Shown here one piece after another: positions 7,758-27,157 of a stretch of 64,000 nt of DNA. The notes beneath the pieces are model-generated. The model searched no databases and was not told the origin of the DNA. It saw only the letters and a list, made by a program, of their open reading frames with translations. This stretch comes from Fibrobacter sp. UWB11 (GTDB lineage Bacteria > Fibrobacterota > Fibrobacteria > Fibrobacterales > Fibrobacteraceae): assembly GCF_900143015.1 (NCBI RefSeq), contig NZ_FSRT01000002.1, positions 124,001 to 188,000 of the forward strand, given 5' to 3'. A program made the position numbers and the translations under genes. Position 1 is the first letter of the stretch. Each line of letters begins with the position of its first letter.

Positions 7758-8301
7758 AGGTATAGACCTCCAAAAGTTTTCGTGACGCATCCCCTTCAAG
7801 AATAAACTGGTAAGGATGCTGAGCACCCAAATAGGAAGCTCCTAGAACTTCAATATAGTGATTTAGCAATTCTTTGTTAAGGGCAAAACCATGAACAACA
7901 CCCCTATACCCCCATTGCATAGCCTTGTCAACGGCAATTGCAAAAAGATGACCGCCTACACCACTATATTTTTGACTTCCAAATGAATGTTTGTTGTTTT
8001 GCGGGGCAGAGCAAGCCCAATGTAGATAGGCAGCTTCTACATCAACATCGTTTTTCACACCCACAAGCCCCTGAATTTCGTTATTTTCCTTCAAAGCTAA
8101 AGCATATATTTCAACATTGCAAGGAACCTCAATCCAATTAATTCCCCATCCATCTTTTTCCTTGAATTTTCTCAGAAACGAACGGCTTTCGATTTTGAAA
8201 ACCACAGTTTCCTTGATTTCTCCAGTTTCGGTATCCTTGAGGCAAGGGACAATTTCGTCCAACCAAATATCAACACAACCGCTAATCAGCGAATTCTTCA
8301 T
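7744..8301 (-). CDS. GNAT-like N-acetyltransferase domain protein
   Basis: A 185-residue protein. Residues about 118-140 (KYSGVGGHLFAIAVDKAMQWGYRG) look like the acetyl-CoA-binding motif A of GNAT enzymes, and NKELLNHYIEVLGA resembles the following motif B; the N-terminal half has the mixed beta strands expected. The substrate is unknown. It starts at the ATG at 8301 with AAGGAG six bases before it, behind its own strong promoter. A 62-codon gene overlaps its end. Codon and base composition are AT-rich compared with the housekeeping genes on either side, which suggests acquisition. The GNAT call is moderately sure; it could be a related acyltransferase-fold protein. Confidence 0.6.
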   Translation of the reverse strand: MKNSLISGCVDIWLDEIVPCLKDTETGEIKETVVFKIESRSFLRKFKEKDGWGINWIEVPCNVEIYALALKENNEIQGLVGVKNDVDVEAAYLHWACSAPQNNKHSFGSQKYSGVGGHLFAIAVDKAMQWGYRGVVHGFALNKELLNHYIEVLGASYLGAQHPYQFILEGDASRKLLEVYTYEWN

Positions 8302-23502: not shown

Positions 23503-26500
23503 TTACACTTCTTCAATAGAAGCATGGTACTCTTGGAGAGACTTCACTGCACCATGGCCGTTACGAGCAGCGGCGATGCCCTTCACGGTGTTGTAGGCAC
23601 CGGCGAGGGTCGTGATGTACGGAACCTTGTACTTGATGGCGGCCTTGCGGATGGCGCTTTCGTCCTTGATGGCGTCGCGCTTTGCCCACGGCGTGTTGAT
23701 GATGAGGTTCACCTGCTTGTTCAGGATGATATCGAGAACGTTCGGGCGGCCTTCAGCAATCTTGTTCACCACTTCGCACTTGACACCGGCAGCTTCGTAG
23801 AACTTGGCGGTACCTTCGGTAGCGTAAATCTTGAAGCCGAGCTTCTGGAATTCCTTGCCGATTTCGATGGCCTGTTCAGACAAGTTAACCTTGTCGGAGA
23901 GGCTAATCAGCACGGCACCTTCGTTCGGGAGGAAGGAACCTGCGGCTTCCTGGCTCTTGTAGTAAGCGAGGGCGTAGTCGTCGGAGAGGCCGAGAACTTC
24001 GCCAGTGGAGCGCATTTCGGGGCCGAGAACCGGGTCCACCTTCGGGAACTTGTCGAACGGGAACACAGCTTCCTTGGCACCGTGGTGGTTGAACTTCTTG
24101 TCCTTGAGCTTCAAGTCTTCGAGCTTCGCGCCGAGCATGAGGCGGGTCGCGAGGCGGGCCATCTGCGTGTTACAGACCTTGGATACCAGAGGCACCGTGC
24201 GGCTTGCGCGCGGGTTCGCTTCCAGGACGAACACCTTGCCGTCTTCGATGGCGTACTGCATGTTCATGAGGCCGCAAACGTGGAGGGCTTCGGCAATCTT
24301 CCTGGTGTAATCCTTGATGGTTGCCAAGTTTTCCTTGGTGATGGTCACCGGCGGGATGATGCAGGCGGAGTCACCGGAGTGGACACCGGCAAGTTCCACG
24401 TGTTCCATCACGGACGGGATGTAAACGTGTTCGCCGTCAGAGAGGGCATCGGCTTCGCATTCCAAAGCGTTGTGGAGGAAGCGGTCGATGAGGAGCGGGC
24501 GATCCGGAGTCACGCCGACAGCCTTTGCAACGTATTCGCGGAGCATGGCTTCGTCGTAGATGACTTCCATGCCGCGGCCGCCAAGCACGAAGCTCGGGCG
24601 GATCATCACCGGGTAGCCACCGATCTGCTTGACGCAAGCGAGGGCTTCGTCGATGTTCGTGGCCATGCCGCTTTCCGGCATCGGGATGCCGAGCTGGTCC
24701 ATCATCTTGCGGAACAAGTCGCGGTCTTCGGCGATGTCGATGGAGTCGATGCTCGTACCGAGAATCTTGACGCCTTCGTCGCTCAAGGCGCGGGCGATGT
24801 TCAGCGGAGTCTGTCCACCGAACTGCACGATCACACCAGCCGGCTTTTCCTTATGATAGATTTGCAGCACGTCTTCCAAAGAAACCGGTTCGAAGTACAG
24901 CTTGTCGGAGGTATCGTAGTCAGTAGAAACCGTTTCGGGGTTGCAGTTCACCATGATGGTTTCGTAACCCATTTCGCGGAGAGCCATGGCAGCATGGCAG
25001 CAGCAGTAGTCGAATTCGATACCCTGGCCGATTCTGTTCGGGCCACCGCCGAGAATCATGATCTTCTTCGGATTATTGGAAGCGGTAGATTCGTCCTTGC
25101 AGTTGTAGGTGCTGTAGTAGTAGTACTGGTCCTTCACGCCGCTCACCGGCACTGCGCACCAGCCTTCGACCACGCCGAGTTCTGTACGCTTCTTGCGCAC
25201 GTCCTTTTCGCGGATGCCGAGGATCTTGGCGATGTACTTGTCGCTGAAGCCGTCCTTCTTGGCCTTGATGAGGAGTTCATCAGCCGGGAGGCGGCCCGGA
25301 GTCTTGAGCATTTCTTCTTCGAGTTCCACGAGTTCGCGCATCTGCTGCACGAAGTAAGCCTTTTCGTAGGTGGCGGCGAAGATTTCTTCGTCGGTAGCGC
25401 CCTTACGGATGGCTTCGTACATCTGGAAGTGGCGTTCAGAAGAAGCGGTCTTCATCATTTCGAGGAGCTCTTCCTTGCTCTTCTTGTTGAAGTCCTTGGC
25501 AAAGCCGAGGCCGGAGCGACCATTTTCGAGGCCGCGAATAGCCTTCTGGAGGGTTTCCTTGTAGGTCTTGCCGATAGCCATGACTTCGCCCACAGCCTTC
25601 ATCTGGGTGCCGAGGCAGTCATCGACGCCGCGGAACTTTTCGAATGCCCAGCGTGCGAACTTGAGCACCACGTAGTCACCGCTCGGGGTGTACTTTTCGA
25701 GGGAGCCATCGCGCCAGTACGGAATCTGGTCGAGGGTGAGGCCTGCGGCGAGCTTTGCAGAAATGAGGGCGATCGGGAAGCCGGTAGCCTTGGAAGCAAG
25801 GGCAGAGGAGCGGCTGGTACGCGGGTTGATTTCGATAATCACCACGCGGCCGGTCTTCGGGTCGTGAGCGAACTGCACGTTGGTACCGCCAATCACGCCG
25901 ATAGATTCCACAATCTTGAAGGCCTTTTCCTTCAGTTCTTCTTCGAGCTTCTTGTCGATGGTGAGGAACGGGGCTGCGCAGAAGGAGTCGCCAGTATGCA
26001 CGCCCACCGGGTCGATGTTTTCGATGAAGCAGATGGCAATCATCTGGTTCTTGGAGTCACGCACGACTTCGACTTCGAGTTCTTCCCAGCCGAGGATGGA
26101 TTCTTCGATGAGGCACTGGTGCGTCATCGAGAGTTCAAGACCGTTACTGCAAATGGTGCGGAGTTCTTCCACATTGTAGCAGAAACCGCCGCCTGCACCA
26201 CCCATGGTGTATGCCGGACGGACCACCACCGGGTAGCCGATTTCGGAAACAATCTTTTCGGCTTCTTCCACAGAGTGGCAAATGCCGGAGCGCGGGGTGT
26301 CGATGCCGAGCTTCTGCATGGTTTCCTTGAAGATTTCACGGTCTTCGCCGCGTTCGATAGCGTCGAGGTTCACACCGATGACCTTCACGCCGTACTTGTC
26401 CAAGACACCAGCCTTGCTAAGAGCAGAGGCGAGGTTCAAGCCGGTCTGGCCGCCCAAGTTCGGGAGGAGGGCCTGCGGGCGTTCCTTTTCGATAATCTGG

Positions 26501-26721
26501 GTAAGGCGGGCAACGTTAAGCGGTTCGATGTAAGTGGCATCGGCCATGACCGGGTCGGTCATGATGGTAGCCGGGTTAGAGTTCACAAGCACAATCTTGT
26601 AACCCTGTTCGCGCAGGGCCTTGCAAGCCTGGGTGCCGGAATAGTCGAATTCGCAAGCCTGACCGATCACGATCGGGCCAGAACCGATGATAAGGACTTT
26701 GTCGATGCCTTCAATCTTCAT
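23503..26721 (-). CDS. carB: Carbamoyl-phosphate synthase large subunit
   Basis: A 1,072-residue protein, close to the 1,073 of E. coli CarB. It contains both ATP-grasp halves ([24 protein letters not shown] at the start and [21 protein letters not shown] near 555), the oligomerisation segment between them and an MGS-like allosteric domain from about 935. It makes carbamoyl phosphate from bicarbonate, ammonia and two ATP, for pyrimidine and arginine synthesis; ammonia normally comes from the CarA subunit, which is not in this window. The ATG at 26721 has CGGAG upstream. A leader with a hairpin and a 43-codon ORF precedes it, suggesting attenuation. The long frame on the opposite strand is a codon-bias shadow. 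Confidence 0.97.
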   Translation of the reverse strand: [1072 protein letters not shown]

Positions 26722-26746: not shown

Positions 26747-26878
26747 TTAAACTCTAAAAAAAAACGCTGAACCAAACGGTCCAGCATTAAAATCAAAAAT
26801 GGAAATAGAAACAATAGCGGTTTCCGCAACATGTTGGGCGCCACAAGCGCACTTCATATTCATCGAAATTCCGTTCAT
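26747..26878 (-). CDS. Putative leader peptide of carB
   Basis: A 43-codon ORF (MNGISMNMKCACGAQHVAET..., ending FFFRV, TAA at 26747-26749) with AGGAAAG four bases before its ATG. It begins about 29 bases after the predicted transcript start, runs through a U-rich tract (about 26787-26815), through the terminator hairpin (26766-26785) and the T run, and stops 25 bases before the carB ATG. E. coli pyrBI has a 44-codon leader ORF placed in the same way. I infer a coupling role rather than a functional protein. The CACG motif leaves open a small metal-binding protein. Confidence 0.6.
   Translation of the reverse strand: MNGISMNMKCACGAQHVAETAIVSISIFDFNAGPFGSAFFFRV
26756..26785 (-). terminator. 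Terminator hairpin in carB leader, candidate attenuator
   Basis: Minus strand GCTGGACC-GTTT-GGTTCAGC (one G-T wobble) followed by G and nine T. It ends 34 bases upstream of the carB ATG and lies inside the leader ORF. Confidence 0.75.
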
Positions 26879-26913
26879 CACTTTCCTATTTCGCAAAGAC
26901 TTAAACTTGCGCA

Positions 26914-26942
26914 AATATAGAATATGTGAACGTACCTTTCAA
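26914..26942 (-). promoter_or_regulatory. Promoter of the carB leader
   Basis: TTGAAA (26937-26942) and TATATT (26914-26919) on the minus strand with a 17-base spacer. The expected start near 26907 gives a leader of about 185 bases. Confidence 0.65.
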
Positions 26943-26983: not shown

Positions 26984-27157
26984 CTAAAAAGTTTCATTAG
27001 ATGTATCTTCTTCCACGTCATCCTGACATTCAGGAAGCGAAGGATTATCCCGGCATTTTTCGCGAAGAGTTTCATAATCGCTATCGTCGGGAGCTGCACA
27101 GCCCACAAAGCTACAAAGCGATACGGCGAGGAACATTCCCAAAAAAACTCGTTTCAT
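26984..27157 (-). CDS. Small 57-aa lipoprotein
   Basis: A 57-codon gene. The ATG at 27157 follows AGAGGT, and the product starts MKRVFLGMFLAVSLCSFVGC, a signal peptide with lipobox FVGC (Cys20). The mature part is only 37 residues, acidic, with two Cys (EKCRDNPSLPECQDD) that may form a disulphide. No family recognised. It lies between HU and the carB promoter, reads in the same direction as both, and may be transcribed from its own promoter. Its stop is about 40 bases upstream of the carB -35 box. Confidence 0.65.
   Translation of the reverse strand: MKRVFLGMFLAVSLCSFVGCAAPDDSDYETLREKCRDNPSLPECQDDVEEDTSNETF

Follow-up and report, generated by a model that had tools for sequence, protein, structure and literature searches.

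What controls transcription of the carB gene that lies on the minus strand of the window (the whole 64-kb stretch of DNA analysed here)? A sequence-only reading had listed the parts of an attenuator in front of it: a promoter, a Shine-Dalgarno sequence with a 43-codon ORF, a T-rich tract within that ORF, an 8-bp hairpin followed by nine T, and an ORF stop just past the T run. Each of these parts is present, and the locus is laid out as follows.

26914-26942, minus strand: promoter TTGAAA-17-TATATT of carB (TTGAAA 26942-26937; TATATT 26919-26914), read from the sequence
26879-26886, minus strand: Shine-Dalgarno AGGAAAG of the leader ORF, likewise read from the sequence
26878 (ATG) to 26749-26747 (TAA), minus strand: leader ORF of 43 codons that reads through the terminator hairpin and is stop-free over it in 52 of 52 leaders
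26823-26863, minus strand: candidate pause hairpin(s), GCGCTTGTGGCGC and adjacent ones, 5' of the T tract, weakly predicted by folding
26789-26816, minus strand: T-rich tract by T content, presumed UTP-sensitive slow zone of transcription
26785-26778 and 26773-26766, minus strand: 8-bp stem of the intrinsic terminator (GCTGGACC, loop GTTT, GGTTCAGC), followed by G and T9 at 26764-26756
23503-26721 (ATG 26721), minus strand: carB, carbamoyl-phosphate synthase large subunit, above cut-off for NCBIfam PRK05294 and TIGR01369

The leader ORF encodes the peptide MNGISMNMKCACGAQHVAETAIVSISIFDFNAGPFGSAFFFRV, the leader folds at -49.8 kcal/mol (z -2.7), and TATATTTGNNCAAGTTTRA, at the promoter, has a single exact match in the genome. 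The segment TATATTTGCGCAAGTTTAA (window 26901-26919) surrounds the likely transcription start; it is conserved throughout the genus, and the genome has no second copy of it. A CAAG...CTTG hairpin is possible at the 5' end of the carB RNA.

We consider it highly probable that the carB leader is a UTP-sensitive, translation-coupled transcription attenuator working like that of E. coli pyrBI, a proposal of the sequence-only reading that is supported by about 50 genomes and by recurrence of the arrangement at other pyrimidine genes. Polymerase would initiate a little past the promoter (26914-26942), with a ribosome starting on the 43-codon ORF. At low UTP, polymerase would slow in the T-rich tract right before the terminator, the ribosome would catch up and sit on the hairpin sequence, and the hairpin would be kept from forming, so that carB would be transcribed. 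At high UTP, polymerase would outrun the ribosome, the hairpin would form and transcription would end at about 26756-26764. We infer that termination actually takes place here, that transcription and translation are coupled and that UTP is the signal.

A chance rate for this anatomy was obtained by scanning both strands of the 64-kb window for an intrinsic terminator no more than 250 nt before a gene start, together with a short ORF that has a Shine-Dalgarno sequence and that covers the terminator or comes close to it. The carB leader was the single match to this pyrBI-style rule, which recovered pyrL from a control stretch of E. coli K-12. The window has 22 terminator-like sites, of which 9 are located no more than 250 nt ahead of a gene start, and only that of carB has an ORF with a Shine-Dalgarno sequence over it. 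At 0.50, T content in the 42 nt preceding its stem is also the highest of the 22 (mean 0.28, sd 0.08). The anatomy of the carB leader is not due to chance. Because the rule demands a Shine-Dalgarno sequence, it missed the carA leader of the same genome, whose ATG lies near the likely transcript start.

We then compared 52 carB leaders (loci) from about 50 genomes of Fibrobacter and sister genera, which are related by descent and so are not independent. They were collected by anchoring on the conserved -10 region with TTTG..CAAGTTT and on a terminator stem of known shape, so that leaders that have lost these would be missed. The leader ORF spans the entire hairpin in 52/52, with frames +1 and +2 open in none. 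The distance from start codon to stem ranges from 87 to 124 nt. All but one of its 14 values are divisible by 3; in the one genome that provides the exception (L082/L158) the hairpin is entered in another frame, so that the end of the peptide is completely different, and the ORF is still open. Across the 358 substitutions in these ORFs no stop was gained, against 8.4 expected under simple substitution rates (P about 2e-4), whereas the ORF stops at no fixed place, 13-178 nt past the stem. Selection on the peptide is not visible, with pN/pS about 1 (0.89 over all pairs; 1.20 over 18 disjoint pairs). Each of the 39 distinct stem sequences is fully paired, and 5 of the 8 pairs covary, with 24 two-sided changes, a count reached in 0 of 500 shuffles. 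T makes up 49% of the 42 nt immediately preceding the stem versus 23% of the earlier ORF, and a candidate pause hairpin is often predicted upstream, weakly better than shuffles (mean z -0.73 over 43 leaders). The expectation that ORF, T tract and hairpin would be kept while the peptide drifts was thus borne out, but ORF length, also expected to be constant, varies, and only the frame over the hairpin is fixed. Taken together, the open frame over the hairpin, the drifting peptide and the covarying stem point to ribosome-dependent release of the terminator, for which frame and position alone count.

These data bear on the view that the hairpin is a plain terminator of an upstream gene, overlapped by a chance ORF, with carB unregulated at the leader. 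A small lipoprotein-like ORF (26984-27157, minus strand) does lie upstream in the same direction, but a promoter-like site separates it from the carB leader, and an ORF kept free of stops over the hairpin in all 52 leaders and found at only one of the 22 window sites makes this view very improbable. The leader is missing in two other genera of the family, in three genomes of one (L162, L164 and L166; L132 is the same contig as L162) and one genome of the other (L165), where a promoter-like sequence after the upstream gene's terminator leads directly into carB. In many relatives (L013, L027, L034 and others) repeat-like inserts (GTCATCCTGAGCG.. and GTCACCCTGGAGCG..) lie between the terminator and carB, and the leader ORF is thereby longer.

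Other forms of leader control would leave different marks on the same sequences. Attenuation by arginine, in which a ribosome stalled at arginine or other codons decides between terminator and antiterminator, is conceivable in that CarB also feeds arginine synthesis and that a leader peptide and a terminator exist. However, upstream complementarity to the terminator arm is at chance level in the carB leader, the peptide drifts freely, and arginine makes up 1.5% of the residues in the 52 leaders with no run of its codons. We rejected arginine leader-peptide attenuation on this scarcity of arginine codons and give it very little credence. A PyrR-bound attenuator, or another RNA switch that binds a protein or metabolite, is hardly more credible; the genome encodes PyrR, together with pyrB, which means that another pyrimidine control exists in this organism, but no conserved antiterminator is found in the carB leader. 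Searches against Rfam returned neither the PyrR element (RF00515) nor any other credible family at carB (E up to 10) or in the scanned relatives (E up to 1), and a known Rfam element at carB was set aside.

A harder question is what the leader senses. The anatomy itself speaks for ribosome-dependent release, and it is T content and gene function alone that tie the signal to UTP; a coupling-dependent attenuator that answers to ribosome supply, purine/ppGpp state or overall coupling, with the T tract as a generic slow zone, would therefore look much the same. We judge such a signal unlikely, since the anatomy recurs before carB1 (the window copy), carA, carB2 and pyrG, all of them genes of pyrimidine synthesis, and since T enrichment is seen repeatedly and exceeds that at other terminators. 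The T-richness at carB could nonetheless come in part from general slow transcription or coupling rather than from UTP. Given the T-rich tract and the pyrimidine genes that follow, the simplest account is attenuation that responds to UTP, as in pyrBI.

The sister leaders reproduce the anatomy in other sequence. In UWB11, carA-carB2 is preceded by a 60-codon leader ORF (L050, about 8030-8250) that ends 3 nt before carA and covers both a T-rich tract and the terminator GGCAAAGGC...GCTTTTGCC, a pyrBI-like arrangement unrelated in sequence to the carB1 leader. The hairpin is covered in 13/13 carA leaders, whose start-to-stem lengths are all 2 mod 3, and in one of them (L055) the middle of the ORF is absent with the frame retained. 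A second cassette (MKISESIEAHLS.AVA.ISQRNQ...) is found before carA (often as carA-pyrG-carB2), before carB2 alone or before pyrG, the gene for CTP synthase; its pyrG copy in UWB11 lies at G000:C2:318036 (L208, G000:C2:317600-321000, about 430-720). Across the genus (L178-L217), the T-rich tract and terminator of this SIEAH..AV..IS.RNQ cassette are read over in all cases. No pyrBI-like leader was seen when the sequences upstream of the pyrR-pyrB-pyrC operon, pyrE and pyrF of UWB11 were inspected.

Unlike the carB1 leader, the SIEAH cassette has a peptide under purifying selection: pN/pS is 0.28-0.46 in frame and at least 0.8 out of frame. This supports the view that leaders of this class are translated. 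Given that leader peptides exist and that those of the sister carA and pyrG leaders are under purifying selection, the carB1 leader might likewise encode a sequence-specific arrest peptide that senses a metabolite. At carB1, however, pN/pS stays near 1, and in the one genome where the hairpin is read in a shifted frame the end of the peptide is replaced completely; we find an arrest peptide here highly implausible. It was ruled out as a candidate by the absence of purifying selection.

The putative UTP-sensitive attenuator at carB1 may have relatives that sense more than UTP. The tracts of standalone pyrG leaders contain 24-29% C versus 14% at carB1, a hint of CTP sensing drawn from four related pyrG sequences. 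Tentatively, the pyrimidine regulon of Fibrobacter may comprise several translation-coupled attenuators with exchangeable leaders, in which the SIEAH peptide (before carA, carB2 and pyrG) would act as a nascent-peptide sensor added to UTP/CTP sensing by a T/C-rich tract, with the carB1 leader using the tract alone.

The gene downstream was expected to feed pyrimidine synthesis. It does encode a full large subunit, but a second copy, carB2, which is 51% identical to it, directly follows carA on another contig, and this carA is the only one found in the genome; the window carB therefore codes for a second, orphan large subunit. Outside Fibrobacteraceae, the homologues most similar to it come from rumen Treponema (up to about 92%, N-terminal part), followed by those of Kiritimatiellae and Verrucomicrobia, which suggests that the window carB was acquired by horizontal transfer.

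The carB leaders of 24 rumen Treponema genomes hold a short ORF of 13-37 codons (one is longer, an earlier ATG having been picked). This ORF stops after a T-rich stretch, between 11 nt before and 7 nt inside the terminator stem. In about half of the Treponema leaders (L083-L129) the start codon lies within an inverted repeat, AGTATGAA/TTCATACT, and many leaders have ATTCTCAA in their middle.

Attenuation of the pyrBI type is a textbook case that was worked out in enterobacteria. The mechanism is already known, and Fibrobacter carB would be a phylogenetically distant instance of it, with unusually strong comparative support; the sister loci (carA, carB2 and pyrG) possibly hold a new peptide element. 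The full anatomy at three pyrimidine loci of one Fibrobacterota genome, together with the related layout in Treponema, suggests that repressor-free nucleotide sensing through transcription-translation coupling is more widespread and has arisen repeatedly. It would also imply tight coupling of transcription and translation in Fibrobacterota, which to our knowledge is untested. Dozens of natural leader variants are available for testing which parts matter. Our literature search found no paper on Fibrobacter carB or its leader, in agreement with the sequence-only reading, or on carB attenuation in Treponema, and Naville and Gautheret 2010 do not refer to either genus in their main text.

Known systems resemble these leaders to different degrees. 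The Treponema carB leaders resemble E. coli rph-pyrE in layout, where an ORF likewise ends near the terminator, so that a ribosome positioned at its stop codon keeps the hairpin from forming. In Treponema, a ribosome that has reached the leader stop would lie over the hairpin's foot in the same way, although the ORF concerned is a complete gene in E. coli and a short leader ORF in Treponema. The Fibrobacter carB leader differs from rph-pyrE in that its ORF runs through the hairpin. In E. coli carAB, the car genes also answer to UTP, but at P1 this control works by reiterative initiation (PMC6245113) and involves no attenuation. For carAB of P. aeruginosa, a study cited in PMC4997734 already reported a leader peptide, with attenuation as the proposed means by which pyrimidines control this car operon; the P. 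aeruginosa leader precedes carA of a carAB operon and not an orphan carB. The leader of E. coli pyrBI, pyrL (PMC4824070, PMC5021804), shares with that of Fibrobacter carB the promoter, the Shine-Dalgarno sequence, the T-rich tract, the hairpin covered by the ORF, the T run, the stop shortly past it and a pyrimidine gene downstream, and the two ORFs have 44 and 43 codons, respectively. They differ in that the Fibrobacter leader precedes a second carB and not pyrBI, in that leader peptide and hairpin sequence are unrelated, and in the T content of the tract, which is 0.50 in Fibrobacter carB versus 0.33 in pyrL.
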